Shown here piece after piece: positions 1,074 through 39,340 of a stretch of 64,000 nucleotides of DNA. Where the stretch lies: positions 1-64,000 of the forward strand of contig WOUP01000005.1 of assembly GCA_009772895.1 (NCBI GenBank), read 5' to 3'. A program made the translations under genes and the position numbers. Source of the DNA: Puniceicoccaceae bacterium 5H (GTDB taxonomy: Bacteria; Verrucomicrobiota; Verrucomicrobiia; Opitutales; Oceanipulchritudinaceae). Each line of letters starts with the position of its first letter. The stretch's first letter is position 1. Under the pieces are notes generated by a model, which did not search any database, was not told the origin of the DNA, and worked only from the letters and a program-made list of their open reading frames with translations.

Positions 1074-1285
1074 GGCTGCACTTCGGTCCCCATTTTCTGA
1101 ATTAGGAATGTCTCCAGGCCTCCAGCAAGCTGAAGGCTTGCCATAACGTAGCCGGTGGTTGAGCGACGCCATGCGAGCGATACCACCGGTGGATTCAAGG
1201 TCATAGACGCACCTTGAAGAGGTGCCATCGTCGTCGTTTCAGCAGTTGCCCTCCCCAAGTCACCTCTATTTAGGGCTGCACTTCG
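1071..1285. repeat. Intergenic element: 15-bp direct repeats flanking hairpins
   Basis: The 15-mer tagggctgcacttcg occurs at 1071-1085 and again exactly 200 bases later at 1271-1285. Each copy contains the stop codon of the adjacent convergent gene. Read on the minus strand, both copies encode the same gene end (EVQP, stop). Between them are two hairpins: gcaagc/gcttgc (1125-1130, 1136-1141) and ccggtggt/accaccgg (1152-1159, 1182-1189), the second enclosing a repeated gagcga. No protein is convincing here. It looks like an inserted dispersed repeat or a duplication of the glycosidase 3' end. Confidence 0.55.
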
Positions 1286-3186
1286 ACCGCGGTTTCCGTG
1301 CCATCTTGCCGGAGCGGAAATACAGCCCAATCCGACGAACCTAGCCCCTGCACCTCGATACCGCTAGAACGCTCGAACGTGAATCCACTTGCAGGCGGCG
1401 GCTCCCCTTCGCCGGTGTAGGCGATCTGATTGTCGAGGAAGCACAGATCCCCCACTCGCCTGCCTTCGACCAGATTGCCGGAGGGCGTCTCGATCACGTT
1501 GTCGACCACGCGGATATTGCGGTGATAGGGCGCATCGGTGGCGAGCACTGCGGAGGCGATCGGCGCAATACGGAAAACCGGCAGCGTGGGATGGATCATG
1601 CGGAAGCGATTGCCCCGGATCAGGACGTCCTGGACCGCACCCGATTCGAACCAATAGTGGCTGTCGCCCTCCATCAGGATGCACATCAGGCTGGGGTTGA
1701 GGAAGCGGCAGTCTTCGATCCGCACGCGCCCCGCCGTCGTCACCAGCACCGAACGCGCCCGGTTGTTCCGGACCGTGCAGCGCCGCATCACGAGGTCGGC
1801 CTGCCAATCGAGGTTGTCGACGATCCACCCGGGCCCAATCTCCGACGGGAGCGCCTCGCTGAAGTGCAGGATGGCGTAGCTTTCGTTGATCCACTCGACC
1901 CGCTCCACCAGGCGGCTCGCCTCGGCCTGCAACGTAGCCGCCCGGGAAAACTGCAGATGGTCGCCCGCTCCGGCGAAGACGTGTCCCGCTTGCTGGAAGT
2001 GGTTCACCCGGACACCCAACCGATTGTCCGCCAGACGCTCCAGCACCGGCACGTAGACCCCATGCACGTTCACGCCGTCGTCCATCATATTGGCAAAGGT
2101 GCAGTCCTCGAGGCGGATCTCGCCCCCGCAGCCGACAAAGTGCGTCGCATCGGCCGTGGTCGAAATCATGCGCCCACTGCCCGGGCGTGGAACGACCTGC
2201 AACCGCTGCAAAGACAAGTCGCGGCTGCGCTCGGCGATCACGCCCATTCCGCCCGCATGGTGAATCGTCATATCGCGCAGCGTGACGTCCGTGCTGCCCG
2301 TGATGTGCACCGCCGGCGAGAGGCGATTGAGGCCCGTCGCCGGTGTGCGACCGGCGCGCCCTTTGGCCACGTAGACCCAGCCCACCTCCGGCAACCGCTC
2401 GCTCACGCGCGTCAGGCACACTCGATTACCGCCCAGAGCTTCGACCCGGCTGGGCGCATCGGTCAGCGCATCCCAGCGATGGTAGTTCAGCGCGCCGTCC
2501 GGGGCCGTCGAGGCGGGAATCATGGCACCCGTTTCACCGTCGAACCACGCGCCCCACTCCAGGTTGCGCCGCCAGGACGTGCGTTCGTCTCCAGTGCGTT
2601 CGCCGTGATAGAGCGCGCCCGCCTCCACCGTGTAGCCGCCGTCGTCCAACAGCGCCAGCTCGTAGCTGCGATGCTCGGGATCGACCGCCACCACTTTGCC
2701 CTGGATGTGAAACGGCACCGCCCAGTCGATCGTAATGCCTTCGATCGTGAGATCCCGACACCGGTCGATCACCAGCGGCACCATCTGGCCGTGGCAGATC
2801 AGCTCCGTCTGCTGCCCGCGCACGGTCAGCCCCGTAAAGTCCACCAACGGCAGCCCGATCGCCTTGCGCCCGTTGTCATGGTTGCTGATCGCGCGGTATT
2901 GCTCGAAGGCCTGCTCCGGATGCAGCTCATAGCGCCCCGGCGGCAACTGCAGCACATCGGCGCCTTCCGCTCGGCATGCCTCCAGCGCACGCCGCAAGGC
3001 CGGGGTGGCGTCCTCCCCGGCTCGCATCCCGTAGTCTACCGCCTCGAGCGTCCGAGCCGACATGGATGCGGCGCCCAGCAGGCACAGCAGCAGGCCCCAA
3101 AGCCAAAGCCGCTCCCCCCGGACCAACGGGGAGAGCCGACAATGGCTGTTTTTCTGGCAGTTCTCAGTCGTCATTATTGACCACAT
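1270..3186 (-). CDS. GH110 family alpha-1,3-galactosidase (secreted beta-helix)
   Basis: A 638-residue exported protein with a hydrophobic signal segment (about residues 27-43, WLWGLLLCLLGAASMSA) and a right-handed beta-helix. It matches the GH110 alpha-1,3-galactosidase family, which removes terminal alpha-1,3-linked galactose. Visible family features are ITIDWAVPF (about 151-159), ADATHF with Asp346, EDCTF, and MMDDGVNVHG with Asp369-Asp370. The 23-residue spacing from Asp346 to Asp369 matches the catalytic aspartates I recall from characterised GH110 enzymes. It is last of three minus-strand genes and overlaps the stop of the upstream beta-helix gene by 23 bases, so translational coupling is likely. 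A start at the Met four codons later (3174) is equally plausible. The 3' end is partly duplicated 200 bases downstream. Confidence 0.85.
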   Translation of the reverse strand: MWSIMTTENCQKNSHCRLSPLVRGERLWLWGLLLCLLGAASMSARTLEAVDYGMRAGEDATPALRRALEACRAEGADVLQLPPGRYELHPEQAFEQYRAISNHDNGRKAIGLPLVDFTGLTVRGQQTELICHGQMVPLVIDRCRDLTIEGITIDWAVPFHIQGKVVAVDPEHRSYELALLDDGGYTVEAGALYHGERTGDERTSWRRNLEWGAWFDGETGAMIPASTAPDGALNYHRWDALTDAPSRVEALGGNRVCLTRVSERLPEVGWVYVAKGRAGRTPATGLNRLSPAVHITGSTDVTLRDMTIHHAGGMGVIAERSRDLSLQRLQVVPRPGSGRMISTTADATHFVGCGGEIRLEDCTFANMMDDGVNVHGVYVPVLERLADNRLGVRVNHFQQAGHVFAGAGDHLQFSRAATLQAEASRLVERVEWINESYAILHFSEALPSEIGPGWIVDNLDWQADLVMRRCTVRNNRARSVLVTTAGRVRIEDCRFLNPSLMCILMEGDSHYWFESGAVQDVLIRGNRFRMIHPTLPVFRIAPIASAVLATDAPYHRNIRVVDNVIETPSGNLVEGRRVGDLCFLDNQIAYTGEGEPPPASGFTFERSSGIEVQGLGSSDWAVFPLRQDGTETAVEVQP

Positions 3187-5197
3187 TGGTCGAGTCCGTG
3201 ACCTGGAAGGTCGCGTCCACGGCCCGGCTTTCGCCCGAGAAATCGTTGCCGTCGATCAGCACGTCGTCGCTGTGCGCAATGTCGAAGATCACGTTGTCGA
3301 CCGAGGGCACATAGAAGCCGCTGACGGTCGACAGGATCTCGTTGTCGCGCACCTCCACGCCGTTGGCGTTGCCCACCTTGATCGCGTGGTGGCTCCAGTC
3401 ACGGATCGTGTTGTTCTGGATCAACAAATCGCCATGCAGGGCCTCCGCACTGTCCGTGCGGTCGCTCTTGGCGATGCGCAGCGTGATCGAGCCCTGCTCT
3501 GTCGCATTCTTGACGAACGTGCAGCGGTCGAAGGTGTTGTCGACGAGCTGCACGGACTGCGAATAGAGCCCGTTGAACCAGAGGTCGGCTTCGTTCTCGA
3601 AGATCACCCCCGCACTGCCGAGCATGGTGAAGGTGTTGCCCTCCACCACGCCCTCGGTGGCCCGGATGATCGCCCCGTGACGGCGGCCCGGCCCGAAGGT
3701 ATTGTTGCGGATGGCGAAGTTGCGGTTGGAACGGCTGTAGTCGAAGAACTGATCCACCTCGTCGCGCGCGCCGGAAAGGGTCAACGCGCTCTCGTTCAGG
3801 GCCTGATCGAGGTGCAGCTGGTATTGGCCGCCGCCGAGCGACGTCCGCGTGACGACTTCATAGGAACCGAGCACGGTGCCGTTTTGCGGCGAAAACAGCT
3901 CCAGTTGGTCCCCGGTGTAGACGGAGTGGCTACTGTCCTGCTGGATCGTAACCAGGGTCGGGTCGGTGTCGTCGATGTCGACGATCTTGATGCCCTTGAG
4001 GTAGAGCGCCACGATGTCGTCGCCGATACCCTCCACCGTACAATCCTCGACCCACGGGCCGATGCTGTTGGAGCGGCAATGCACGAAATCCGCGTTAGCC
4101 CCCCAGCTGCGACCGCTCGCGATCAGCGAATCGCAGCCCAGCACCTTCACGTCGCGCGACCACATCATCGAGTAGTGCCCGGCCGGCGCCGCATAGTTGG
4201 TGATGTCGGCAAAGGTAACCCCGGTCGCACGGTCGGCGGAAAACAGCGGCTGACAGCCCTCGCGCGCGAAGTGCACGTAGCGGTCGCCGGCGTCGAAATA
4301 CTTGAGGTAGCCCGTGCTCGAAAGCGTGAAGATATACTGGTCAGGGTCTGTCGTAGACTGGCTGACGTCGCTCTGGTCGAAGCTGTAGAGCAGGTAGGCG
4401 CCGTCCTTCAACTTGCCGTCGATGTTGGGATCGAGGATGCAGCCCCAACTGGTCCAGCTGGCCTGCATCTGCGGGTCGTCGAAGGCCGGAGAATTGGCAT
4501 TGACCTCGATCGTGACGGAGCCGGTGCCCGCACTGCTTTTGCTGACCACCGTGCCGGTCGCATAGGGCAGCGGGTCGTAATCGATCACGAAGTCTTCGAT
4601 GAGCACGTTGGTGGTGTCGTCGAGGAAGACGAAGCCCGAGGTGGCCGATTCCATGATGATCTCCGCGCCTTGCCCGTTGATCCACACGTTGTCGGCGTAG
4701 CGCAGGTTGAGCACAAAGTCGTAGGAGGCGCTGGAGGGCGGCTCGAGGTGGTAGGTGCCCGAAGCGAACTCTACGTAGACGGCGCCGCTGCCGAGCGCCG
4801 CGTCGATCGCGCTCTGGATGTCGGCGGCGGTGTCCGAGGTGTCGACGTTGACGACCGTGACGGGCGTGCTGACGGAAAAGCTGCCGCCCGTGGCCCAGCT
4901 ACTCGTGGTCGCAGCGGCATCCACCGCGCGGACTCGCCAATAAAGCGTGCCCGCCGGCAGTCCGACCGGTTGGGCGTAGCGGGAAATGCGCGAGGTCTCG
5001 TCCACCAGCAGGTTGGAGAAATAGGCGTCGTCGGAGACCTGGACTTCGTAGTGGGTCGCGCCGGAACTGTCCGCCCAGCCAAAGGACGGAAAGGGGAAGA
5101 CCGGCGTCAGGCCGCTGTTGACCTCCAAGGAGGTGGGGAGCGAGGGCGCGGCCGCCAGGGAGGCCGCCGGCAAGGCAAGCAAGGGCCAAAGTTTCAT
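3164..5197 (-). CDS. FN3-like plus right-handed beta-helix protein, divergent GH110 relative
   Basis: A 677-residue exported protein with a signal peptide (MKLWPLLALPAASLAAA). An Ig/fibronectin-III-like module (about 20-112, containing YEVQVSDD and LYWRVRAVD) precedes a beta-helix from about residue 120. It is collinear with the adjacent GH110 enzyme: IEDFVIDYDPLPY matches IEGITIDWAVPF, WSRDVKVLG matches ERSRDLSLQ, and Asp370, His373, EDC 384-386 and Asp393-Asp394 keep the same spacing as the GH110 Asp346, His349, EDC 360-362 and Asp369-Asp370. The NVHG that follows the aspartate pair in the neighbour is replaced by IVALY. I infer a distant GH110-like glycosidase acting on the same polymer. 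A lyase or binding role is possible. Confidence 0.7.
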   Translation of the reverse strand: MKLWPLLALPAASLAAAPSLPTSLEVNSGLTPVFPFPSFGWADSSGATHYEVQVSDDAYFSNLLVDETSRISRYAQPVGLPAGTLYWRVRAVDAAATTSSWATGGSFSVSTPVTVVNVDTSDTAADIQSAIDAALGSGAVYVEFASGTYHLEPPSSASYDFVLNLRYADNVWINGQGAEIIMESATSGFVFLDDTTNVLIEDFVIDYDPLPYATGTVVSKSSAGTGSVTIEVNANSPAFDDPQMQASWTSWGCILDPNIDGKLKDGAYLLYSFDQSDVSQSTTDPDQYIFTLSSTGYLKYFDAGDRYVHFAREGCQPLFSADRATGVTFADITNYAAPAGHYSMMWSRDVKVLGCDSLIASGRSWGANADFVHCRSNSIGPWVEDCTVEGIGDDIVALYLKGIKIVDIDDTDPTLVTIQQDSSHSVYTGDQLELFSPQNGTVLGSYEVVTRTSLGGGQYQLHLDQALNESALTLSGARDEVDQFFDYSRSNRNFAIRNNTFGPGRRHGAIIRATEGVVEGNTFTMLGSAGVIFENEADLWFNGLYSQSVQLVDNTFDRCTFVKNATEQGSITLRIAKSDRTDSAEALHGDLLIQNNTIRDWSHHAIKVGNANGVEVRDNEILSTVSGFYVPSVDNVIFDIAHSDDVLIDGNDFSGESRAVDATFQVTDSTNVVNNDD

Positions 5198-5312: not shown

Positions 5313-6833
5313 TCACTCCTCCACCCAGCGAAACGGCGGCGCAGGCAGCATCGAAGCGTTGTAGAGATACCCCTCCTGCCAGGGCTGCCAAGCGTAGCGT
5401 ACACTTACAGGCTCTGGAACGCGTTCAGAGGTCACGACCACGCAGTTTCCCGAGATTTGGACCGCAGCATCCGCGGGATGAAAAATGCCGTCGACGCCCG
5501 CCAGTTCGAAGCCCGAAGCCACGTTACCGATTGCCACCAACCCCGCCCCCACGTCCGCGAAACGTAGCCGCAACTGTCCCTGTTTGCGGACCACGGAACG
5601 CAGTTGCGGCCCAGTATCCTGCAAAGGAACCCCATACTGCCGATGCAAGGCCAGCCGTGCCAACCGCTCGCCAACCCTGCGCTTGTGCGTTGGGTGAATG
5701 TTATGATGCTCGCCAAGGTCAATGGCGCAGGCAAGCCCCGCCTGAGGTAGCGTAGCTATGTGGGCCTGCGCCGCCCGGATCGCAACCCAGCCTTCCTGCT
5801 CCACCGGGTTTTCAGGGGCGCGGACGTAGCCGGGCAGCTGCACCGCATAAAACGGCAGGTCGCCTTGACCAAAAGCCTGACGCCAATCCTCCACCATGGC
5901 CACCAGCTGAGCCTCGTAGGGTGCCGCACGTCGCGAATTGCTCTCGCCCTGATACCACAGGATGCCCCGCAACGTCATCGGGATCACCGGATGCAACATG
6001 CCGTTGTAGAGCCCCGAGGGCGTATAGTGGTGCCCGGGACCGAGCGGCGGACGCGGCTTGGCTGAGGCGTCTTGCCCCACAGCCTTTCTTGCCTGCCACT
6101 GGGCGAGGCGTTTCTCGTAGGCTGCTTGTGCCGCCGGGTAGCGCGCCAAGGTTTCCTGCCATTCTTCCGCGACGAAAGCAAATTCTGGATGAGCGGCCAA
6201 TGTCTCCGCACGGGTCCAACCTTCCACCCGCGTACCGCCATGCGTAACGTTGAGAATACCCACTGGCACCCCTGTTTGCGCCTGCACTTGCCTCGCAAAG
6301 TAGTAGCCGACCGCGCTGAACGTGCCCGCGGTCTCGGGACTGCAAACCTGCCAGGTACCCGCAGTGACATCCAGCGGCTCATCGCTCACGCGCCGCGGCA
6401 CCTTCAGCTGTCGGATCAAGGGGTACTGCGCGCTCTCGATTACCGCTTCCGCCCCCGCGATGTGGCTGAGGCCAAACTCCATGTTGGATTGACCAGCGCA
6501 GAGCCACACCTCCCCAACCAGCACGTCGTGCAATTCCAACCGGTTTTCCCCCTCTGCCGTCAGAGGGCGCCCCTCGGCAGAAGCCTTCTGGGCCGGAAGT
6601 TGCAGTTGCCAGCGGCCCGTTGCACCCGCCTGCGTCCGGGCGTGCGAATCCGCGAACGTAACTGTTACCACTTCACCCGGTGCAGCGGAGCCCCAGATGT
6701 TCAATGGCTTGCCCCGCTGAAGCACCATATGATCCTGGAAGGGCGCGCCCAGGCCCACTTCGGCCCGAAGGGAGGCCACAAACACAACGCAGACAGTCGG
6801 TAGAAACAGGGCACAGATACGAAAATACGACAT
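5313..6833 (-). CDS. Sialate O-acetylesterase-like SGNH hydrolase
   Basis: About 506 residues, exported: signal peptide MSYFRICALFLPTVCVVFVASLRA. The nucleophile block is LCAGQSNMEFG (Ser116 counted from this start). The family block GILWYQGESNS and a C-terminal Asp/His block DLGEHHNIHP are also present, so the catalytic set looks complete. This family removes acetyl groups from sialic acids or, in polysaccharide loci, from plant and algal glycans, and the second role fits the glycosidase neighbours better. An upstream ATG at 6860 is in frame, but the later start gives a clean signal peptide. It is first of a three-gene minus-strand set with the two beta-helix genes, and is divergent from the GH97 gene across about 160 bases. 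Confidence 0.85.
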   Translation of the reverse strand: MSYFRICALFLPTVCVVFVASLRAEVGLGAPFQDHMVLQRGKPLNIWGSAAPGEVVTVTFADSHARTQAGATGRWQLQLPAQKASAEGRPLTAEGENRLELHDVLVGEVWLCAGQSNMEFGLSHIAGAEAVIESAQYPLIRQLKVPRRVSDEPLDVTAGTWQVCSPETAGTFSAVGYYFARQVQAQTGVPVGILNVTHGGTRVEGWTRAETLAAHPEFAFVAEEWQETLARYPAAQAAYEKRLAQWQARKAVGQDASAKPRPPLGPGHHYTPSGLYNGMLHPVIPMTLRGILWYQGESNSRRAAPYEAQLVAMVEDWRQAFGQGDLPFYAVQLPGYVRAPENPVEQEGWVAIRAAQAHIATLPQAGLACAIDLGEHHNIHPTHKRRVGERLARLALHRQYGVPLQDTGPQLRSVVRKQGQLRLRFADVGAGLVAIGNVASGFELAGVDGIFHPADAAVQISGNCVVVTSERVPEPVSVRYAWQPWQEGYLYNASMLPAPPFRWVEE

Positions 6834-6993
6834 GGGGTAACAGAGGTTCAGACCATCCATAGGTCAAAGGAGGCAGCGAGCCCAATCGCCTCCAAGTCAA
6901 CAGTACACCGACGCGTGCGTTGCCAACCTTCGCTCGCTCGCCGAGGGTGCACTGACTGGTTTTACTCCGCCACCTCCGACCCCTCTTTCCCCG
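6834..6993. promoter_or_regulatory. Divergent intergenic region between esterase and GH97 genes
   Basis: About 160 bases separate the divergent starts, so promoters for both arms of the sugar locus must lie here. An inverted repeat ggaggc (6869-6874) / gcctcc (6888-6893) is visible and could be an operator. No convincing -35/-10 pair or classical LacI half-site was seen. Confidence 0.35.
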
Positions 6994-8865
6994 ATGATTG
7001 CTGCGTTTTCCCGGCTCATGTTGCCGCTGGCCTTGCTCACCTCTACCGCCCGCGCGGCCGACGACACCGTCTCTTGGCAAAGCCCTGACGGGCGTCTGAC
7101 CGCCACCCTGGAAATCCCCCGCACCGGCACGCCCACCTGGCGACTGGCCGCCGCGGGGCAAGTCGTCCTGCCGACTGCTCCGCTGGGGTTGCGCATCGAC
7201 GGCATTCAGTATGGCCCCGGTTCCACGCTTGAAGCCGTGACGCCCTCCTCAGGTCAGGATGTGGTGGCCCAAAAGGGCGTCGCTCGACCGTCACCCATTA
7301 CCTGGAACGGGCGTAAGCTTGAGCTGGCCGGGCCGGAAGGCCAGTGGTGGACGCTCGAAGCGCGGCTCTTCGACGGCGGCTTTGCCTGGCGCTACATCGT
7401 GGCGGGCGAGGGTGAACGCCAGGTGGAGGGCGAGACCGGTGGCTTTCACCTGCCTGAAGACAGCACGGTATGGCTGGCCGAGCGTCCCAACGACTGGAAG
7501 CTCAAGTCTTACGCAGGCACCTTCATGCGCGTGGATCGGGAGGATCTGCCCGATTTTTCGCCCGTCGGACCCGTGCAAGGACCACCCCTCGTCGCCGAAT
7601 TGCCCAACGGCAGCTATGCGTTGTTCTCCGAAGCCGCCCTGAGCGACTACAGCGGCCTGCGGCTGCGGGCGGAGGCGGATGGGCTGCTTCTGGCGGATGT
7701 GCAGCCGTTTACCACCTCAGGTCCGATCACGAGCCCCTGGCGCGTCGCCCTCTACGCGCGTGATCTAGACGCGCTCGTCAACAATCGCGTGATCCCGGCG
7801 CTAAATCCTGCGCCCGACCCGGAATTGTTCGCCGATACGGACTGGATCCACTACGGCAAGGCGGTCTGGCGCTGGTGGAGTTCAGGCACCGGCACGCCGG
7901 AAGAGGAACGCGCCTACCTCGATTATGCCGCGCGGCTGGGCTTTACCTATGCCCTCGTCGACGACGGCTGGAAGGACTGGGATGAGCCGTGGCAGCGCGT
8001 CGCTGAGCTGGCCGACTACGGGCGCAAACAGGACGTGCGCGTGCTCATCTGGTGCGCTTATGCCGACGTGGCTGATCCAGCGCAGGACTACCGTCAACTG
8101 CGGGACTTCCTCGACCGCGCGGCGCAAGCCGGTTCCGCCGGGGTGAAGCTCGACTTTTTCAACGCGGAGACCAAGGACCGGATCGACTTCGAGCACCGGG
8201 CGTTGGAGGAAGCGGCACGGCGCCAGCTGGTCGTGATCTTCCATGGCCTGCAGAAGCCCAGCGGCGAGGCCCGCACCTATCCCAACGAAGTCACCCGCGA
8301 AGGCATCCGGGGCGCGGAGCTGAACCACATGGCCGAGGGTCCGGTCACGGCCGAGCACAACACCGCCTTGCCCTTCACGCGTTTTGTGGTGGGCGCCGGC
8401 GATTATACCCCGCTGGCCCTGTCTGCCCCCGGCGAAACGACCTGGAGCCATCAGGCGGCGACACTGGTGGCCTTTACCTCACCGGTGCAGGTCCTGGCGG
8501 AAGACCCGCGATTGCTGCTCGAGGATCCCCGCACCGCCCCGGCGCTGCCCTTCATCCGCGAGGTGCCGACGCTCTGGGACGAGACGCGGGTGTTGCCGGG
8601 CAGCGAGATCGGCGAACGCGTCGTCATGGCCCGCCGCGACGGCGCCCAATGGTGGCTGGCCATCCTCAACGACGGCCCGACGGAAATTCGCGACCTCGAC
8701 CTGTCCTTTCTCGGCTCGGGCACCTACACGGCCCAGGTATTGACCAGCCCGGAACCCCACGCCTTTGCCCACGAGACACACAAAGGCGTCGACCAGGGCT
8801 GGCATCCGTGCTTCCGCCTCACCTCAGGCGATGGCGTGCTCATCCGCTTCATCCCGCAACCCTAG
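6994..8865 (+). CDS. GH97 family glycoside hydrolase (alpha-galactosidase-like type)
   Basis: A 623-residue exported enzyme with a signal peptide ending LLTSTARA. It has the GH97 layout: an N-terminal beta-sandwich (to about residue 270), a central TIM barrel and a short C-terminal beta domain. The barrel contains LVDDGWKDW, GVKLDFF (Asp387), IFHGLQKPSG and TYPNEVTREGIRGAE. GH97 includes inverting alpha-glucosidases (SusB type, catalytic Glu) and retaining alpha-galactosidases (BtGH97b type) whose nucleophile is an Asp in a VK-D-F motif. The Asp here points to the retaining, galactosidase-like group. That agrees with the GH110 enzyme across the divergent promoter. The next gene starts four bases after its stop, so the two are co-transcribed. 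Confidence 0.85.
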   Translation: MIAAFSRLMLPLALLTSTARAADDTVSWQSPDGRLTATLEIPRTGTPTWRLAAAGQVVLPTAPLGLRIDGIQYGPGSTLEAVTPSSGQDVVAQKGVARPSPITWNGRKLELAGPEGQWWTLEARLFDGGFAWRYIVAGEGERQVEGETGGFHLPEDSTVWLAERPNDWKLKSYAGTFMRVDREDLPDFSPVGPVQGPPLVAELPNGSYALFSEAALSDYSGLRLRAEADGLLLADVQPFTTSGPITSPWRVALYARDLDALVNNRVIPALNPAPDPELFADTDWIHYGKAVWRWWSSGTGTPEEERAYLDYAARLGFTYALVDDGWKDWDEPWQRVAELADYGRKQDVRVLIWCAYADVADPAQDYRQLRDFLDRAAQAGSAGVKLDFFNAETKDRIDFEHRALEEAARRQLVVIFHGLQKPSGEARTYPNEVTREGIRGAELNHMAEGPVTAEHNTALPFTRFVVGAGDYTPLALSAPGETTWSHQAATLVAFTSPVQVLAEDPRLLLEDPRTAPALPFIREVPTLWDETRVLPGSEIGERVVMARRDGAQWWLAILNDGPTEIRDLDLSFLGSGTYTAQVLTSPEPHAFAHETHKGVDQGWHPCFRLTSGDGVLIRFIPQP

Positions 8866-8869
8866 CCCC

Positions 8870-11443
8870 ATGCGCCTCGCTTCCTGCCTGTTCAGCCTGC
8901 TCTGCATCAGCCCGCTCTGGGCCGCGTCCTATGCGCTCGAAGACAGTGCCTGCCACCTCGAATGGCAAGAGACGCCCGATGGCTGGCGACTCGATGCCAT
9001 TGAGCTGAAAACGGTCGACGGTCCGCTCGCGGTCGCACATCCCAGTGGCGCTCATACGGTGCTGTTCGCACCCGAGGCCCCATCGCAGGCGTCACCTGAT
9101 TTTTACCTGCCGGGGCAGGACACGCCCTTTCCCGACCCGATCTACCGCTACAACGTGCAGAAATGGCACGAAGCCACCACGCCGGTTGCCCTGAACGAGG
9201 CCGGCGAAGCCTGGACCTTTCTGCCGTCCGAGGCCGAGCTGACGCCCGACGGCAGCCTGCGCTTGCACGAATCCGGCCCCCACGCCGAAGTGGAGACGCA
9301 GTGGCGGCTCGATCCATCCTTCCCGGGCGATCTGATCGTGACGCAAACCCTGACCGCGCGGAAGGCCGGCTACTATTCGCTCGCCACGCCGGAGCTATTG
9401 ACCGCAACCGAAGACCAGCTCGCCTGGGCGGTTGTGCCGGGCTACTTCCAGGGGCACCGCTTCAACGACAACCTCGTGCTGTCGCTCGTCTACGGTCACG
9501 GCCTGCCGCGCCGCCCCGTGCTCGCGCGCGAACGCGGCACCTCCACCCTCGCCAGCATTCTCACCCTGCAGAGCGGCCTGACCCTCAGCGTCTCCGCCGC
9601 TCCCGGCACGGCCGCCGACCCGTGGCCCGACGATCATGCCCGCCGCAGCACCTGGCGGCTCGGCCTCTCGCACCTCGACCGGCAGGGCGCGCTTTCGCCC
9701 ACGCTCTACCACCCGGTGCTGGGCGAAGACGGATCGTGGCTCGAAGCGGGCGAATCGACTACCTTTACCGCCCGCTACAGCCTGCGTCGGGACGATTGGT
9801 ATGCGGCGCTGAAACACGTCGCCCGAGACGTCTATCGGGTACCGGACTTCCTCGAGCTGAAGCAGCCGCACACCTCCTTGAGCGAACGCCTCGTGGCCTT
9901 GCACGACTATGTGGTCGACGATGCGACCTCGATGTGGCGCACGGAGACCTTTGAGGGGGTCGAGATCGGCGCCCAGGCCTACTTGGGCGGCGTCGTCGGC
10001 TCGGACAAGGATGCGATGAAGAACTCGGACTATGGCGCGATGTGGATGCTAGCCGCGCTGACGCAAGACCCGCGTTTGACCGAAGACCGCCTGCCCTACG
10101 CCCGCAACTTCAAGCTCGTGCAGCAACAGCAGGCGCCGGGCTTTTTCGAGGGCGCCGCGCGCGGCCAATACTACCTTTCCCAAAGCCGACGCTTCACTGA
10201 GGAGTGGGGCGACTATGTCGAGCCGGTCGGGCTGACCTACTACATGATGCTCGACCTGGGCAACATCCTGCTCTTTTCGCCCGACGATGCCGAACTGCGC
10301 GCACGCCTGCGCCTCGGGGCCGAGCGCCTCCTGGAGTGGCAATACGCGGACGGCCATTGGGAAGTCGCCTACGACCATACAACCCACGCCCCCCGTTTCA
10401 CCGCCACGCCGGACTACCGGCCCACGTTTTACGGGCTGCTCGTTGCCTACCGCATCCTGGTAGATGAGCGCTACCTGCAGGCGGCCGAAAAGGGTGCGCA
10501 CTGGCTGATGCAACATGCCGTGGCCGAGGGGCGCTTTCTGGGAGTGTGCGGCGACAACCGTTTCGCGCCCGACTTCGCCACGGCCCAGATCGCCCAGGCC
10601 CTGCTGGATTTGCACGAACTGACCGGCCAACAGGCCTACCTCGACGCGGCAATCCAGACCGCACGCTTTTACACGACCGCCGTCTTCACCCACCCCCGCG
10701 CCACCACCGCCACCAAGCACGTCAAAGGCACGGCGCAACCCGACTGGGCGATCAACCAGACGGGCTTGAGCTTCGAACACGGCGGTTCCATCGGGTCCGC
10801 CGGCACGGAGGGCCCCATTCTGCTCGCCAGCCACGCAGGCCTTTTCATCCGCATCGCCCAGCTGACGGGCGATCGCTATTTCGCCGAACTCGCCCGGGCC
10901 GCCACGTTGGCCCGCGACGCATTCGTCAACCCCGACACGCAGGTGGCCTCCTACTACTGGAAGGCCATGAATCGCGGCGCCGGACCGTATCCGCACCACG
11001 GCTGGTGGCAAATCGGCTGGATCACCGACTACCTGATCTCCGAAGCCGACTACCGTTCCGCCGGCGCCGTGCACTTCCCGCGCGGCTTCATGACCCCAAA
11101 AGTGGGGCCGCACGCCTGCTACGGCTTCGCTCCCGGTGAGATTGCCGGCGAGCCCGCACAACTGGCGTGGGCAACGCTCGACACGGGCGATGCGGCCGTC
11201 GACTACCTCGTCGCGCACGCCACCGACCTCAGCCGCACGTACCTCGTACTGCTCAACGACGCCGACCAGCCCCGCGAGGCCCGCCTGCGCTTCGAGGCGA
11301 ACCAGCTCGCCCCGCAGCCCGGCATGACGCTGCGCCAGATCGTCCAGCTCGACGCAGCGCGGGAAACGCCAATCCAGAACGCCCAAGTGCGCCTGCCTGC
11401 CTACGGTATCGCGATCCTGGCCCTGGACTTTGACGCGCCCTAA
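8870..11443 (+). CDS. Secreted alpha/alpha-toroid protein, probable glycan-active
   Basis: 857 residues with a signal peptide (MRLASCLFSLLCISPLWA). The N-terminal third is a beta-sandwich. The rest is helical with toroid-type repeats such as GLTYYMMLDLG, YGLLVAYRIL and HAGLFIRIAQLTGD. Trp/Tyr-rich stretches such as GPYPHHGWWQIGW are typical of carbohydrate-binding clefts. I recognise a class seen in verrucomicrobial sugar loci, sometimes labelled glycerophosphoryl diester phosphodiesterase without support, but not a characterised family. The start at 8870 sits four bases after the GH97 stop; an in-frame extension back to 8765 would overlap GH97 and lose the signal peptide. A related-looking protein lies at 16812-19664. 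Confidence 0.7.
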   Translation: MRLASCLFSLLCISPLWAASYALEDSACHLEWQETPDGWRLDAIELKTVDGPLAVAHPSGAHTVLFAPEAPSQASPDFYLPGQDTPFPDPIYRYNVQKWHEATTPVALNEAGEAWTFLPSEAELTPDGSLRLHESGPHAEVETQWRLDPSFPGDLIVTQTLTARKAGYYSLATPELLTATEDQLAWAVVPGYFQGHRFNDNLVLSLVYGHGLPRRPVLARERGTSTLASILTLQSGLTLSVSAAPGTAADPWPDDHARRSTWRLGLSHLDRQGALSPTLYHPVLGEDGSWLEAGESTTFTARYSLRRDDWYAALKHVARDVYRVPDFLELKQPHTSLSERLVALHDYVVDDATSMWRTETFEGVEIGAQAYLGGVVGSDKDAMKNSDYGAMWMLAALTQDPRLTEDRLPYARNFKLVQQQQAPGFFEGAARGQYYLSQSRRFTEEWGDYVEPVGLTYYMMLDLGNILLFSPDDAELRARLRLGAERLLEWQYADGHWEVAYDHTTHAPRFTATPDYRPTFYGLLVAYRILVDERYLQAAEKGAHWLMQHAVAEGRFLGVCGDNRFAPDFATAQIAQALLDLHELTGQQAYLDAAIQTARFYTTAVFTHPRATTATKHVKGTAQPDWAINQTGLSFEHGGSIGSAGTEGPILLASHAGLFIRIAQLTGDRYFAELARAATLARDAFVNPDTQVASYYWKAMNRGAGPYPHHGWWQIGWITDYLISEADYRSAGAVHFPRGFMTPKVGPHACYGFAPGEIAGEPAQLAWATLDTGDAAVDYLVAHATDLSRTYLVLLNDADQPREARLRFEANQLAPQPGMTLRQIVQLDAARETPIQNAQVRLPAYGIAILALDFDAP

Positions 11444-11502
11444 GAGACTTGCCCCAGCGCCCGGCGAGCGTAACAATCGCCCCAACCCCTCTCCCCTGCT
11501 CC

Positions 11503-12612
11503 ATGCCCCGCAGTCCCGTCACCATACGCGACATCGCCCGAGAGGCACGGGTGTCGCCCTCTGCCGTCTCGCTGGCCCTGCGCAACAGCCCCAAGATCTC
11601 CGATCAGCAGCGCGAACGCATTCAGGGCATCGCCCACCGCCTGGGCTACACCAAGGACCCGCACATCACACAGCTGATGGCGCACCTGCGGCAATCGCGC
11701 TCCACGCGCTCGGCGGCCACGCTGGCGGTGCTCATCCCGGAGATCAGCGCCAGCGAGCAACAGAGCTATCTGCCCATCGTAGCCCTGCTCGAGGGACTGC
11801 AGGCCCAAGCTGCGCGTATGGGCTTCGAACTCGACATCTTTCACCTGGCAGACCTGGGCGTCACCCCGGCGCGGCTGCGCAGCATCCTGATCGCGCGCGG
11901 CATCAAGGGCATTATCCTGCTGCCGTTTCGCAGTGGCGTGGGGCGGATCGACTTCGACTTCAGCGGTTTTTGCGCCGCGACCGCTGGCTTCAGCATCATC
12001 GACCCGATGCTCGACCGCGCCTGCCCGAATTACCTGCAGATGATGGACGAGCTGCTGGAGCACCATTGTGCCCTCGGCTACGAACGCATCGGGCTGGTGA
12101 TGACCTACAGCGAGGGCGGGATCGGCCAGAAGCTCTTCACCTCCTCTTTTCTCTTTTTCCAGACCAAGATCGATCCCAGCCAGCACATCCCCATCTTGCC
12201 CAAGAAGGACATTTCGGACGACAACCTGCGCTGCTGGATCGAGACCTATCGCCCGCAATCCATCATCAGCGCGGGCAGTACCTACCAGCGCCTCGTGCGC
12301 CTGGGCTACCGCATCCCGGAGGACTTCGGCTTTGCCAATATCGACCTCTCGGAGCCGCCCGACGACGCCACCGGCGTTAACCACCGCTACCGCTTGATCG
12401 GCAGCGAAACCGTCTCGCTCGTCGCCAGTAACCTGAACCTCAATCAGACCGGCGTGCCGGACAACCCGCGCGTCGTCATGGTCGACTCCCACCGCCGCAA
12501 CGGCTTCAGCCTGCCCTCGCGCGGTGAAAAAGTGCCCGTCACCCTGCGCACCACCGTTTCGGAAAAAATGCCGCGCCAGAAAGCCGTCGCGGCTCCTCTG
12601 GCGCAGTCGTAA
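11503..12612 (+). CDS. LacI family transcriptional regulator
   Basis: 369 residues. The N-terminus is a classical LacI helix-turn-helix (VTIRDIAREARVSPSAVSLALRN) with the hinge region HRLGYTKDP, followed by a periplasmic-binding-protein-like effector domain. LacI proteins repress, or in this phylum sometimes activate, sugar genes in response to a saccharide. Its place directly after the GH97 and toroid genes makes it the likely regulator of this locus. The chosen ATG (11503) puts the HTH at the very N-terminus as usual; an upstream in-frame ATG at 11449 would add residues with no family match. It converges on the symporter gene with a 24-base gap. Confidence 0.9.
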   Translation: MPRSPVTIRDIAREARVSPSAVSLALRNSPKISDQQRERIQGIAHRLGYTKDPHITQLMAHLRQSRSTRSAATLAVLIPEISASEQQSYLPIVALLEGLQAQAARMGFELDIFHLADLGVTPARLRSILIARGIKGIILLPFRSGVGRIDFDFSGFCAATAGFSIIDPMLDRACPNYLQMMDELLEHHCALGYERIGLVMTYSEGGIGQKLFTSSFLFFQTKIDPSQHIPILPKKDISDDNLRCWIETYRPQSIISAGSTYQRLVRLGYRIPEDFGFANIDLSEPPDDATGVNHRYRLIGSETVSLVASNLNLNQTGVPDNPRVVMVDSHRRNGFSLPSRGEKVPVTLRTTVSEKMPRQKAVAAPLAQS

Positions 12613-12636
12613 TCGAGCTGAAGTGTGGGCAGGCCC

Positions 12637-14409
12637 TCAGACGGCAGGCGTCAAAGCGAGCTTACGCTCCAGGCGGCGCACGAAGTAGAAGATCACGCCG
12701 CCGAGCGCGAAGAGCATGCCGGCAAAGACCAGTAGCACGGCCACCTTTTGGGCCACTGTCACCGCCAACCCAGCCATGACGAGCCCCAGGATGACGACCG
12801 CGCCGGCACACAGCTTGGCCGGCAGCATCGAGGCGATCGCAGGTTGCGCGGCGGCCAGTTCGTTCGCCCGGGCGGCATGTTCGCGGATGCGACGAAAGCC
12901 GGGGGCCTCCTGTTGGCTCAACGCTTCCGAAATCGCGAGCACGAGCAGCGCCGTGACCGAGCCGACCACGAGGTCCGTCACCTTCTGGTTGACTTGCACC
13001 AGCGCAGTGATCGGGCGCAACCACGAGAAGTCGAGGAAGCCACCCGCGGACAACCCGAACTTGGCCAGCACGGCGCAGCCACCGCCCACGATCGTCGCGG
13101 TCCAGGCCGTCTTGAGGCTGATCTTGCGGGAAAACAGGCCCCAGATCGTCGGCAGCACCAGGGGCCCGGTCAGCATCGCGGTCAGCGAGATGATATAACC
13201 CGTATAGGTGCCGGCACGCGGGATGATCATCGAGCCGGCAATGATCACCAGGCCGAGCGCGATGGTAAAGACCCGCCCCATCGTCACGAGGCGGCCTTCG
13301 CTCGCCTGCGGGTTGATCAGGTTGCGGTAAAATTCATTCGTGAAAGCCCCGGCGTAGACGTTGAGCTGAGTCGTGACCATACTCGCGGTCGCGCTCGTCA
13401 TCGCGGCCACCATCAGGCCCATCATCCCCACCGGCAGCACTTCCTGGCAGGACATGACGTAGGCGCGTTCGCCCAGCGCATTGATCTCGGCCGGGCTCAG
13501 GCCCTCGGGGATCGGTGAAATCAGCCGGAAGGCCATCGGCGGCAGCATCCAGAAGATCGGGCTGACCAGATACATGATGCCGAACAGGAAGGTGCTTTTG
13601 CGTGCCGATTTTTCGTCCGGCACGCAGAGGAAGCGCTGCACGAAGGTCCAGTCGCCCCCGATCTTGAAGTAGTGCACCACGATCCAGCCCGTGAGGAACC
13701 ACCAGGTGTAATCTTGCGCGACCGGCTGCCAGAAGCCCTGCGGCGCCTGGGCCAACCCTTCGAAGCCGCCCGCCTTGATCAGGATCAGCGGCACCACCAC
13801 GACCACGGACACGCTCAGGATGATGAATTGCAACACGTCCGTCATCAGCACCGCCCAAAGGCCGCCCCCGAAGGTGATCAGGATGATGACCCCGCAGATG
13901 AAAATCGACGTGTAGGTGACCGAAAGGTTGCCCGTCGCGGGGTCGGCCAGCGGGTGGTCGACCCCCAGCGGCACGAGGGTGCAGACGATGATCGACAGCG
14001 CGTAGACCGAGCCGCCCATCGTGAACAAATTGATGAGGCCCTGCAGCCAGGTGTAGAATTGCACGATGGAGTTGCCGAAGCGCAATTGCAGGAACTCCGC
14101 GGCAGAGGACACGCCCTGGCGCTTCCACACACCCGCCAGCGTCCAGCCGACGGCCAGGGCCGCCACCCCGTAGCAGAGGCTGATCGCGACCGCCACGAAG
14201 CCGTAGCGGTAGGCGATGCCGCCCCACACCACGAAGGTGCCGGCGGAGAACATCGTCATGAAGGCCGACAGCCCCGACACCCACCAGGGGGATTCGCCGC
14301 CGGCGGCAAACATCTCCTGCGACGACTTGTTGCGGGAGACAAAGAACCCGCCCATGACCAGCAGGCCGATCACATACAGCAGGATGACGAGGTAATCGGG
14401 GGTACTCAT
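12637..14409 (-). CDS. Sodium:solute symporter (SSS family)
   Basis: 590 residues of an inner-membrane transporter with about 14 hydrophobic segments, beginning with YLVILLYVIGLLVMGGFFVS. The signature GGESPWWVSGLSAFMTMFSAGTFVVWGG is of the SSS (SGLT/PutP) family, which couples Na+ entry to uptake of sugars or other small solutes. The long soluble loop near 520-545 and a final pair of membrane segments resemble sugar-type members. Its ATG overlaps the oxidoreductase stop by four bases (ATGA), showing tight coupling. It is last in the TonB-receptor operon, so the likely cargo is a sugar or uronate released by the locus. Confidence 0.88.
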   Translation of the reverse strand: MSTPDYLVILLYVIGLLVMGGFFVSRNKSSQEMFAAGGESPWWVSGLSAFMTMFSAGTFVVWGGIAYRYGFVAVAISLCYGVAALAVGWTLAGVWKRQGVSSAAEFLQLRFGNSIVQFYTWLQGLINLFTMGGSVYALSIIVCTLVPLGVDHPLADPATGNLSVTYTSIFICGVIILITFGGGLWAVLMTDVLQFIILSVSVVVVVPLILIKAGGFEGLAQAPQGFWQPVAQDYTWWFLTGWIVVHYFKIGGDWTFVQRFLCVPDEKSARKSTFLFGIMYLVSPIFWMLPPMAFRLISPIPEGLSPAEINALGERAYVMSCQEVLPVGMMGLMVAAMTSATASMVTTQLNVYAGAFTNEFYRNLINPQASEGRLVTMGRVFTIALGLVIIAGSMIIPRAGTYTGYIISLTAMLTGPLVLPTIWGLFSRKISLKTAWTATIVGGGCAVLAKFGLSAGGFLDFSWLRPITALVQVNQKVTDLVVGSVTALLVLAISEALSQQEAPGFRRIREHAARANELAAAQPAIASMLPAKLCAGAVVILGLVMAGLAVTVAQKVAVLLVFAGMLFALGGVIFYFVRRLERKLALTPAV

Positions 14410-16772
14410 ACGTGCAGGGCGGGCAGCGGGAGGTGAACGTCGGGACCGTAGCAGCGCACCGCCAAAAGGGAGGCCGGCACGTGCGCGGAGGGGTGCGCCA
14501 GCTTCAGGCGCAAGCAGTCGGTTTTCCAGCCCTTTTCAAAGGCAAGGTGCAACAGCGTCTGGTGATTGCCCGAAACCTGCGCCACGAGGCGGCCTTCGCC
14601 ATCGAGCAGCTCACAATCCCGAACCGCAAAGGGCATGACCTCTTCCGGGTGCCCCATCAGCACCGATTCCATGGCGTGGTCGAAATCCGTATCGAAGGCC
14701 AGCACCACGGAGCCGAGCTCCTGCGGCATATCCCAGCGCATTTCCAGCATCGGCGCGCCGTCCTGCGGATCCGCGATCCAGGCATTCGGTTGCGAAGTCG
14801 GTCGCTCAAAGCCCGAACGCAGCTGCGTCTTGTCGCAGGTAAAGACCGGCTCCGAGAGCGCAAAGGCCAGGTTGTAGCCTTCCGGCCGGCGCCGCGGGGT
14901 CCAGAACTCGAAGCTGTCCACCCCCGAGCCTTCGGGCGCGTCCTGGCGTCCGTTGTTGGACACCCGCTCGTTCACGCCGTTGTAGACCGTCAACAGCCCC
15001 GTGGCGCGCGTTTGCGAAGCCCGCAGCGAGACGCCCGGCTGGGCGAGGAAGCAAACAAACGCGTAGTCGTCGCGCGGCATCGCTTCCTGCCATGGCAGGC
15101 TCACCGCCTGTTCGCCCGGCTGCAGGCGCACCGTCCGGCGCTCGAGCACGCGATCCGGCGTAAAGTGGGCGGCACGGTGTCCCACGCGCAGCTCCACGAC
15201 CAGCTCCGTGGCGGCCTCCGCCTTGGCCTGAAACGTCATGACCGGCAGCTTGCCCTGTTTTGCCGGCAGCATTTGTGCCAGCGATTCATGCAGGGTCTGC
15301 CAGGGGCCGTCGGCCGGGAGCGACTGAATGGCCCAAGCGCTGGAGGTGCTGAAACGCGCCTTGGCCGCGAGGTCGTCCGGGTCTTCCAGGGCCACTTCGG
15401 GGATATGCTGCCCCAGCCGCTGCAGTTGCACACGTAACGGGCGGAAATGCTCCGGTTCGGCCATTGCCGCAGGCGAAATCCCCTGGCGTTGCGCCTCGAC
15501 CACCGCCAACGCGGTCGCCTGGGCCAGATAGCCGCAGGTCGCCATGACGCGGGTCGAACCGAAGGCCGAGTGCGTGGCGCTGACGATGCGCCCGCCCAGC
15601 ACCAGGTTGTCAAAATCGCGCGGCAAGGTGATGCGCAGCGGGATCTGATAGACGCCCTTGGAGTGCCATTGGCTGCAGCCGGGCTTGTTGGAGTAGACGC
15701 CGTCCGCCGGGTGCAGGTCCAGCGCCCAACCCCCGAACGCCACCGCATCGTCGAAGAGGCGCTGCTCCACGATGTCTTGCTGCGTCATCATGTACTGCCC
15801 CTCGAAGCGGCGGCTCTCGCGCTTGCCGGGGATCATGCCGACCCACTCCAGCGTGTGCGTCTCCGACTCCGGGAACTTGCCCGAGTTCTTGATGTAATCC
15901 CAGATGCCGTAGATGACCTTCCACAGCTCCCACTTGATCTGCTCGGACTCGTGTACCGTGTCGAGCCGACCGCCGTATTCGACCCACCAGAGCTTGCACC
16001 CGAATTCCTTCAGATTGATCTTCTGGTAGCGCGGGATCCGATTGATGTCCTTCAGCGCAAAAGAAGGGGCGCGGTATTTGACCGGGCGGCCTGTGTCCTT
16101 GCTGTAAAAATACAGGGAGTGCCCCAGCAGGTAACCGTAGTCTTCGGTCGGCGCGAGGCCCTCGTCAAACTCATCGCGCGGCTCGGCGCCCATGCGGAAG
16201 GCGGCCCCGGCCAGAAACGAAACGACGCCGTCGCCCGAGCAATCCATGAAGTCGCGCCCGCGCAGGACGTAGCGGATCGAGTTTTGCGAACAGAAGGCGA
16301 CCACCGCCGCCAACTCGCGCTCTCCCCGCTTTTCCACCTCGTAGACTACCGTGTTGAGCAACAACTCGATGTTGGGCTCCTGCTGGACCTTGTCGAGCAG
16401 CAGGGCGTCTACCAGGAGCGGGTTGCCTTCGGGGTTGCGGAAGACGTTCTCCACCAACAACTCCCCCATCACGCCGCTCTCACGCGACCACCGGTTGTTG
16501 TTGCCCATGTGGGAGGTGGCGCCGAGCATCCAGAGGCGGACCTCGCTGGAGGCATTGCCCCCGAGCACCGGACGGTCCTGCACCAGCACGACCTTCAACC
16601 CGGCCCGGGCAGCGGTGATGGCGGCACAGGTCCCGGCCACCCCACCCCCGACGATCACCAGATCGCGCTCCAGGGTCTCGGTGCGCAGCTCACGGCCGCG
16701 GGCCTCCAGGGCTTGGCGAGCCAATCGCTCGGAGCCGCCGCCAGGGTTCAACGTAGAAACAAAATCGCTCAT
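14406..16772 (-). CDS. FAD-dependent oxidoreductase with C-terminal beta domain
   Basis: 788 residues. The Rossmann motif DLVIVGGGVAGTCAAITAARAG (Gly42, Gly44, Gly47) is followed by VLGGNASSEVRLWMLGA, the hallmark of the FAD_oxidored family found in planctomycete and verrucomicrobial polysaccharide loci. No clear signal peptide is present. The C-terminal third (from about residue 500) is a beta-rich module that lies outside the FAD fold. Members are presumed to oxidise or dehydrate sugar intermediates, but the reaction is not established. It lies between the large toroid gene (39-base gap) and the symporter (four-base overlap), so it probably handles the imported product. Confidence 0.82.
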   Translation of the reverse strand: MSDFVSTLNPGGGSERLARQALEARGRELRTETLERDLVIVGGGVAGTCAAITAARAGLKVVLVQDRPVLGGNASSEVRLWMLGATSHMGNNNRWSRESGVMGELLVENVFRNPEGNPLLVDALLLDKVQQEPNIELLLNTVVYEVEKRGERELAAVVAFCSQNSIRYVLRGRDFMDCSGDGVVSFLAGAAFRMGAEPRDEFDEGLAPTEDYGYLLGHSLYFYSKDTGRPVKYRAPSFALKDINRIPRYQKINLKEFGCKLWWVEYGGRLDTVHESEQIKWELWKVIYGIWDYIKNSGKFPESETHTLEWVGMIPGKRESRRFEGQYMMTQQDIVEQRLFDDAVAFGGWALDLHPADGVYSNKPGCSQWHSKGVYQIPLRITLPRDFDNLVLGGRIVSATHSAFGSTRVMATCGYLAQATALAVVEAQRQGISPAAMAEPEHFRPLRVQLQRLGQHIPEVALEDPDDLAAKARFSTSSAWAIQSLPADGPWQTLHESLAQMLPAKQGKLPVMTFQAKAEAATELVVELRVGHRAAHFTPDRVLERRTVRLQPGEQAVSLPWQEAMPRDDYAFVCFLAQPGVSLRASQTRATGLLTVYNGVNERVSNNGRQDAPEGSGVDSFEFWTPRRRPEGYNLAFALSEPVFTCDKTQLRSGFERPTSQPNAWIADPQDGAPMLEMRWDMPQELGSVVLAFDTDFDHAMESVLMGHPEEVMPFAVRDCELLDGEGRLVAQVSGNHQTLLHLAFEKGWKTDCLRLKLAHPSAHVPASLLAVRCYGPDVHLPLPALHV

Positions 16773-22897: not shown

Positions 22898-24181
22898 ATG
22901 TACCGAACTTTTATTCCACGCACCCTCAGTCGTCTTTTTCTCTGTTCGTGCCTGCTGGGCCTCCCACAACTTCAGGCCCAGAGCGCACCCCCCAACCTCT
23001 CCCGCCCGGTGAGCCTCGAAACGGCGCTCCACTGGGCTCTTGAACGCGACCCAACCCTGCAACGCCTCGAAACCGAAGAGGACGCCGCGGAAGGGCAAAT
23101 CGAGCAGGCCGATGTCCGGCCCAATCCGACGGTCGAAGCCGAAGTCGAAAACATCCTCGGCACGGGGCCCTTCGAGGGCGTCGACGGGGCCGAAATCACT
23201 CTGAGCGTCCGCCAGGTGATCGAAACCGCCGACAAGCGCCAGAAGCGCACGACCCTCGCCCGCCGCGAACGCGCACTCGTCGATTGGGACCGCGAACTGC
23301 GCCGGGCCGAGGTCGAGGCCTCCGTGCGCGCCGCCTTCATCGAGGTGCTGCTCGCCCAACGCACCCTGGAGCTGCGCCAGCAATTGCTCGGCGTGGCACA
23401 GGATAGCGAAGGCGAGACCAGCCGTCTGGTCGAAGCCGCCCGCGCCCCGCAAGTCGAAGCCACCCGCGCCCGCCTGGCCGTGCGGCAACAGCAGTTTGCC
23501 GTGCAACGCGCCCAGCAAGCCCTCACCGCCGCCCGCCAGGGCCTCGCGACCTGGTGGGACGTCGCGTCGCCCCCCGCCTTCGAGGTGACCGGCGAGTTAC
23601 AACTGGAAGCCGAAACGCCCAGCCTGGAACAACTCCAGACCTCGCTGGCGCAAACGGCCGCGATCTCCCGTTACGAGGCCGTGCGCGAAAAGCGCAGTGC
23701 GGCCGTCGAGCTGGAAGAAGCGCGCGCCAGGCCCGACTTCGAGCTCTTCGCCGGCGGCCGCTACACGCGCGACAACGATGGCGATGCCGCGTTTCTGGCC
23801 GGCGTCGCCATGCCCTGGCCGCTCTTCGACCGGAACGAGGGCAACATCCGAACCGCCCGGGCCCGCTTGCGCGCCGTCACCCACGAGCGCGCCGAAACCC
23901 GCCGCACCCTCAGTCAGGCACTCAGCATCGCCTATCAAGAGCTGACCGCTGCGGCCCACGAGGCCCAGACGGTGGAACAGGAGTTGATCCCCGCCGCCCG
24001 CCAGACCCTCTCCGAGACCGAAGAGGGCTATCAACGCGGCCAGTTCACCCAACTCGCAGTGCTCGACAGTCGCGCGGCGCTCTACGAGGTGCAAGAGGCC
24101 TACCTCGATGCCCTCCGCCGCTATGCCCACGCCGAGGCGCGCATCACCGCCCTCACCCGTCCTGCCCAGATCCAACGCTGA
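22898..24181 (+). CDS. TolC-family outer-membrane channel of metal efflux system
   Basis: 427 residues with a signal peptide (about 1-28, ending LPQLQAQS). It has the two-fold repeat of long helices and beta strands typical of the CzcC/CusC family: SLETALHWALERDPTLQRLETE starts the first repeat, and AMPWPLFDRNEGNIRTARARL marks the second. It forms the outer-membrane duct of a tripartite pump with the adaptor at 24196 and the RND protein at 25234. It is 14 bases upstream of the adaptor, so they are one operon. Confidence 0.9.
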   Translation: MYRTFIPRTLSRLFLCSCLLGLPQLQAQSAPPNLSRPVSLETALHWALERDPTLQRLETEEDAAEGQIEQADVRPNPTVEAEVENILGTGPFEGVDGAEITLSVRQVIETADKRQKRTTLARRERALVDWDRELRRAEVEASVRAAFIEVLLAQRTLELRQQLLGVAQDSEGETSRLVEAARAPQVEATRARLAVRQQQFAVQRAQQALTAARQGLATWWDVASPPAFEVTGELQLEAETPSLEQLQTSLAQTAAISRYEAVREKRSAAVELEEARARPDFELFAGGRYTRDNDGDAAFLAGVAMPWPLFDRNEGNIRTARARLRAVTHERAETRRTLSQALSIAYQELTAAAHEAQTVEQELIPAARQTLSETEEGYQRGQFTQLAVLDSRAALYEVQEAYLDALRRYAHAEARITALTRPAQIQR

Positions 24182-24195
24182 AAACGCATCCATCC

Positions 24196-25212: not shown

Positions 25213-25233
25213 CGCAGGGAAGGAGTCACAAGC

Positions 25234-39336: not shown

Positions 39337-39340
39337 GGTG

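Follow-up and report, generated by a model that had tools for sequence, protein, structure and literature searches.

Gene content of the locus

Within the window, the whole 64,000-nucleotide stretch of DNA that was analysed, three genes follow one another on the minus strand in the order CE20-type acetylesterase, protein B and protein A, with the esterase gene 115 nucleotides upstream of that for protein B (Table 1). Protein A probably starts at its second ATG, at 3174 (MTTENCQ...), inside the end of the gene for protein B, and the overlap of the two genes is kept in a sister species of the same genus (G001; ATGACTGA), in which the orthologue of protein B is 68% identical and that of protein A 64-65%. 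A codon comparison with this species gave a dN/dS of about 0.26 for protein B and 0.28 for protein A, rough values with synonymous sites near saturation, and hence both are conserved as proteins and under purifying selection. A 716-residue open frame runs antisense across the whole of the gene for protein B and is likely a by-product of codon composition.

Table 1. Features of the locus, with positions in the window unless another locus is named
Feature	Position	Strand	Basis
Protein A, GH110 alpha-1,3-galactosidase, 638 aa	1270..3186	-	PF23764, PDB 9beh, tree
A: codons of catalytic Asp346 (base), Asp369 (acid), Asp370 (base)	2077..2151	-	alignment with PdGH110B Asp321/344/345
Antisense open frame, 716 aa	3062-5212	+	
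Protein B, GH110-like clade-B enzyme, 677 aa	3164..5197	-	PDB matches to GH110, orthologue
B: beta-helix catalytic module, residues 112-677	3167..4864	-	VIA vs 9beh
B: Arg505 (= PdArg451, +1), His507 (replaces PdArg453)	within 3572..3685	-	alignment
B: Glu534 (= PdGlu480), Trp540 (= PdTrp486 platform), Asn542 (replaces PdGlu488)	within 3572..3685	-	alignment
B: codons of Asp370 (base), Asp393 (acid), Asp394 (base), Ala397 (replaces PdAsn348)	4007..4090	-	alignment
B: FN3/Ig-like N-terminal domain, about residues 37-111	4865..5089	-	model strands, weak profile matches
SASA/CE20-type acetylesterase	5313..6860	-	PF03629; best PDB 9h4u, carbohydrate esterase FI8, 2.3e-90
GH97, nearest to retaining alpha-galactosidases	6994..8865	+	PF10566; PDB 3a24, 5e1q
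892-aa ORF, weakly GH127/GH88-like	8765..11443	+	Pfam, below cut-off
LacI-type regulator	11449..12612	+	PF00356
SSF sodium:solute symporter	12637..14409	-	PF00474
FAD-dependent oxidoreductase	14406-16772		PF12831
950-aa protein	16812-19664		
TonB-dependent receptor, siderophore type	19793-22150		
RND efflux operon	22898-28338		
RND efflux operon, CusAB-like	35575-41185		
GH110-like clade beside clade-B genes, locus L032 (also L038, L062)	11950-13722, 13740-15419, 3016-5085	+, -, +	
GH110-like clade beside clade-B genes, locus L036	7477-9264, 15610-17433	+, -	

The CE20-type esterase, the GH97 enzyme, the LacI-type regulator and the SSF symporter suggest an acetylated, galactose-containing glycan. 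In the sister species, proteins B and A adjoin each other without the CE20-type enzyme, GH97, the regulator or the symporter, and the pairing of B with A is therefore firmer than the wider pathway; from the same arrangement, the CE20-type and GH97 enzymes may lie outside the pathway of A and B. The 892-residue frame probably has a later start than the one called. Neither this protein nor the 950-residue protein matched a PDB entry or a Pfam family over cut-off, and without a PDB match they gave no help as pointers to the identity of the glycan. The oxidoreductase gene overlaps that of the SSF symporter and adjoins the carbohydrate genes. The TonB-dependent receptor, which stands beside the carbohydrate locus, is of the siderophore type and was on that account not counted as glycan uptake. 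Two RND efflux operons are also present, the second with a heavy-metal binding domain. No sulfatase was found on the window's contig, and the whole genome holds three.

A GH110 enzyme and a remote homologue outside the family

Protein A is a standard GH110. Pfam family PF23764 (GLAA-B beta-barrel II) matches it at 56.2 bits against a cut-off of 28, its best matches are PdGH110A, PdGH110B and AmGH110A, with the crystallised PdGH110A (9beh) at E = 1.4e-80, and in the tree it falls inside the GH110 clade together with the same three enzymes (UFBoot 100), all of which bears out its original assignment. By alignment it equals PdGH110B at all 13 of the active-site positions checked, and it retains the catalytic triad and the -1 subsite (Asn102, Arg288, Asp346, Asp369, Asp370, Asn373, Arg476, Arg478, Glu506, Trp512 and Glu514). 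Here Asn102, Arg288, Asn373, Arg478, Glu506, Trp512 and Glu514 correspond to Asn85, Arg265, Asn348, Arg453, Glu480, Trp486 and Glu488 of PdGH110B, in which Asp344 is the acid and Asp321 and Asp345 are bases (PMC7939477). The pocket of PdGH110A has room for galactose-6-sulfate through its Arg460, and that of PdGH110B is closed off by Glu480 (PMC12549532). Given that position 506 of protein A is a glutamate, as in PdGH110B, an enzyme for desulfated galactose, where PdGH110A has Arg460, protein A is an ordinary GH110 that should accept galactose lacking a 6-sulfate. With this glutamate in place of Arg460 and no sulfatase on the contig, a role in lambda-carrageenan breakdown was rated unlikely, and the carrageenan or sialylated substrates that had been put forward find no support.

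Protein B is similar to protein A by BLASTP at E = 4e-6 to 6e-5 (485 residues, 22% identity), and to the solved GH110s it is about 14-19% identical. Searched alone against the PDB it found GH110 chains as the only credible matches (2e-9), a profile of five clade-B members reached GH110 at 2.6e-14, and comparing the B and GH110 clades by HHalign gave a probability of 100 (E = 2.9e-41, 501 columns); the likeness of A and B, with its conserved catalytic spacing, is thus not due to chance. The Pfam GLAA-B models matched neither protein B nor any of the five closest clade-B proteins, and Pfam and NCBIfam returned only generic beta-helix names for protein B.

The AlphaFold2 model of protein B (mean pLDDT 78.8, pTM 0.80, with the active-site blocks 361-400 at 85-92) returned GH110 chains at all of ranks 1 to 15 in Foldseek (best 3.9e-29), followed by GH28 at 3e-10, and VIA aligned it with 9beh over 535 residues at 2.3 Å (Z 42.0), a GH110 fold. 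The alignment behind this model contained GH110 rows, which could bias the fold, and a control prediction based on clade-B rows alone (pLDDT 72, pTM 0.72) again ranked the same 15 chains at the top. A beta-helix with two barrel domains, as in GH110, is accordingly present at the level of the predicted fold. At the N terminus, a Sec signal peptide recognised by eye (MKLWPLLALPAASLAAA) precedes predicted beta-sandwich strands at about residues 38-109, which together with weak profile matches to Ig_Rha78A_N, FN3 and the N-terminal domain of oligo-alginate lyase weakly support the FN3-like domain originally proposed. Together these sequence and model comparisons indicate that protein B is a genuine, though remote, homologue of GH110.

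In a tree of 61 sequences, protein B and its orthologues form one clade, whose eight core members have UFBoot 100 and which lies within a 35-sequence group without GH110 (support 97). A second tree, of 36 rows under a site-mixture model, recovered GH110 as one clade (100/99) and B as another (92/97), and a single clade of GH110 plus B was rejected, with a log-likelihood 78 lower (AU p = 1.0e-5). Several other uncharacterised clades fall between the two. Long branches make fine placement uncertain. Because the AU test rejects their union, protein B is placed by these trees outside GH110 sensu stricto, and not on a branch of that family as the original prediction had held.

Clade B was found in a few percent of the genomes sampled. 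Its carriers are relatives of the window's organism within one order, among them Cerasicoccus arenae (placed by NCBI in the order Puniceicoccales), as well as Chthoniobacter flavus and other Verrucomicrobiota. A pattern-based scan of genome contigs, with a strict pattern that may miss others, gave three clade-B matches, all in Verrucomicrobiota, and no relative was found in viral contigs. In the window's genome the A/B pair accounts for the single GH110 and the single clade-B gene, and in 5 of the 9 genomes with both kinds a GH110 gene lies ≤10 kb from a clade-B gene, where by our own estimate the random expectation is roughly 0.06. Verrucomicrobiota also carry more uncharacterised GH110-like beta-helix clades with the D...DD triad intact, and a genome often has several of them (loci L007, L008, L022-L031, L047-L068 and others). 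A further one, on the GH110 side of the tree, adjoins clade-B genes in Cerasicoccaceae-type loci; its members retain Asp321 and Asp345 but not Arg451, have Met or Trp at the position of the acid Asp344, and may be either pseudo-enzymes or enzymes with a changed mechanism. The literature searched yielded nothing on GH110-like clades from Puniceicoccales/Opitutales.

Active site and -1 pocket of protein B

Protein B has Asp370, His373, EDC at 384-386, Asp393-Asp394, SRD347 and IDY205, to set beside Asp346, His349, EDC at 360-362, Asp369-Asp370, SRD321 and IDW153 of protein A, which also has NVHG from 373, a motif absent from protein B. Coordinates, lengths and every residue quoted in the original prediction were correct, and among its marker blocks D-x2-H and DD proved invariant in the orthologues of protein B; EDC (to EGC or QDC) and SRD (to SSD or SSG) vary and are incidental. 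By alignment, the acid Asp393 equals Asp344 of PdGH110B and the bases Asp370 and Asp394 equal Asp321 and Asp345, with a triad spacing identical to that of GH110 (23/24 residues), and the 2.3 Å match of the whole fold suggests that the three aspartates cluster in one site. Alignment and predicted fold also give protein B the clan GH-N layout of a beta-helix with adjacent acid and base aspartates and a second base aspartate one coil earlier.

We mapped the pocket by placing PdGH110B residues on an alignment of 15 clade-B, 12 GH110 and 48 other-clade sequences. Asp321, His324, Asp344, Asp345 and Arg451 are kept in all 15 clade-B proteins, and Trp486 is kept in 14 of them, the other having Tyr. 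The residues that contact the galactose hydroxyls and ring oxygen in the -1 subsite of PdGH110B are Asn85, Arg265, Asn348, Arg453 and Glu488 (PMC7939477), of which Asn348, Arg453 and Glu488 are invariant in 12 of 12 GH110s. In every clade-B protein Asn348 has become Ala and Glu488 Asn, and Asp482 has become Glu; 14 of the 15 have Tyr, Phe or His at the Arg453 position (His in protein B itself), no residue matches Asn85, and Arg265 is not conserved. Arg312 of protein B, two residues from the Arg265 position and invariant among close relatives, may stand in for it. The missing NVHG, whose Asn is the -1 residue Asn348, forms part of a larger difference, with Asn85, Arg265, Arg453 and Glu488 changed too. 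Given that the other clades mostly keep Asn348 (31/48) and Glu488 (35/48), the clade-B states look derived. The 480 position is Arg in 6 of the 15 clade-B proteins and Glu534 in protein B. On this alignment, clade B has retained the catalytic engine and replaced the grip on the sugar.

Proposed function and alternatives

On sequence and model, we consider it fairly probable that protein B acts alongside a GH110 as an inverting exo-alpha-glycosidase whose -1 pocket has been remodelled. Both A and B would be secreted, probably periplasmic, exo-acting glycosidases, with A removing terminal, non-sulfated alpha-linked galactose with inversion. Protein B would share this chemistry and the right-handed beta-helix: Asp393 would protonate the glycosidic oxygen and Asp370 and/or Asp394 would activate a water molecule under C1, with Trp540 as the hydrophobic floor of the -1 site and Arg505 in +1. 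Because the -1 pocket is rebuilt, the terminal sugar accepted is most likely other than plain galactose, and the changed sugar of the original prediction is the most economical reading of these alterations; the loss of the residues that hold the C4 and C6 hydroxyls would favour a sugar that differs there, whether 6-deoxy, a pentose, uronic or substituted. As a counterpoint, the Glu480 and Trp486 positions are kept in protein B, which might bind a galactoside differently. Protein B would trim one residue of an acetylated, galactose-containing glycan also attacked by A, the CE20-type esterase and GH97; activity, inversion, sugar and shared glycan are here what we infer. Since the overlapping pair is kept in the sister species, joint action of A and B on one glycan is likely, and this and the gene context support the shared polymer first proposed.

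The main rival, which we regard as unlikely, is that protein B is still an alpha-galactosidase, whose galactose carries a substituent (acetyl, methyl or sulfate) or is linked in another way, with pocket changes that fit the substituent. A single -1 change between PdGH110A and PdGH110B switches acceptance of galactose-6-sulfate (PMC12549532), the arginine at the 480 position in six clade-B proteins resembles PdGH110A, and a CE20-type esterase adjoins protein B. However, the -1 subsites of PdGH110A and PdGH110B are otherwise nearly identical, whereas five -1 positions and not one are changed in clade B, and protein B has Glu534 rather than Arg. That protein B is a non-catalytic, carbohydrate-binding pseudo-enzyme seems very improbable: decay does occur in the superfamily, as indicated by the related group of the same loci, in which Met or Trp has replaced the general acid Asp344, but the three aspartates, the histidine and the +1 arginine are invariant in clade B across Verrucomicrobiota families, and dN/dS for protein B is low enough to argue against it.

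Least probable of all is an unrelated mechanism, with protein B acting as a beta-helix lyase, epimerase or transferase. Although the wider fold is common to the AlgE epimerases and the RbmB lyase (VIA Z 33 to 36), these match over only about 320 residues, all 15 GH110 chains rank far higher in Foldseek, and the hydrolase Asp triad is invariant. For the mannuronan C5-epimerases AlgE4 and AlgE6 the likeness lies in the parallel beta-helix core (Z about 36, 320 residues), in a shorter alignment, and their chemistry and catalytic residues differ from those of protein B. The clan GH-N type families GH28, GH49 and GH87 share with protein B a beta-helix and the same acid/base arrangement of aspartates (PMC7939477), and GH28 and GH87 rank next after GH110 in Foldseek, far more weakly (E 3e-10 versus 4e-29).

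Returning to the inverting exo-glycosidase that we favour, among the GH110 alpha-1,3-galactosidases (PdGH110B 7JW4, PdGH110A 9BEH, AmGH110A 8PVS, PpaGal 9I4F, AgaBb 8YK1) protein A is a full member. Protein B resembles them in predicted whole fold, in the spacing of its Asp triad, in the Trp platform and in the +1 Arg451, and differs in lying outside their clade, in lacking a GLAA-B Pfam match, in its N-terminal FN3/Ig-like domain and in the replacement of Asn85, Arg265, Asn348, Arg453 and Glu488. Whether clade B is a new clan GH-N-type GH family, with the GH110 engine, a -1 sugar that is not galactose and translational coupling to a GH110, strikes us as evenly balanced. Clade B is a new clade of a known kind of enzyme and not a categorically new system. 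GH110 enzymes are used in blood group B conversion and carrageenan breakdown, and their -1 pocket has been described as remarkably conserved; clade B, with the engine, the Trp floor and the +1 arginine kept and the sugar contacts swapped, would show which positions set specificity and gives proteins with which to test them. In the tree, GH110 is one among several clades of a larger superfamily, common in Verrucomicrobiota and for the most part uncharacterised.
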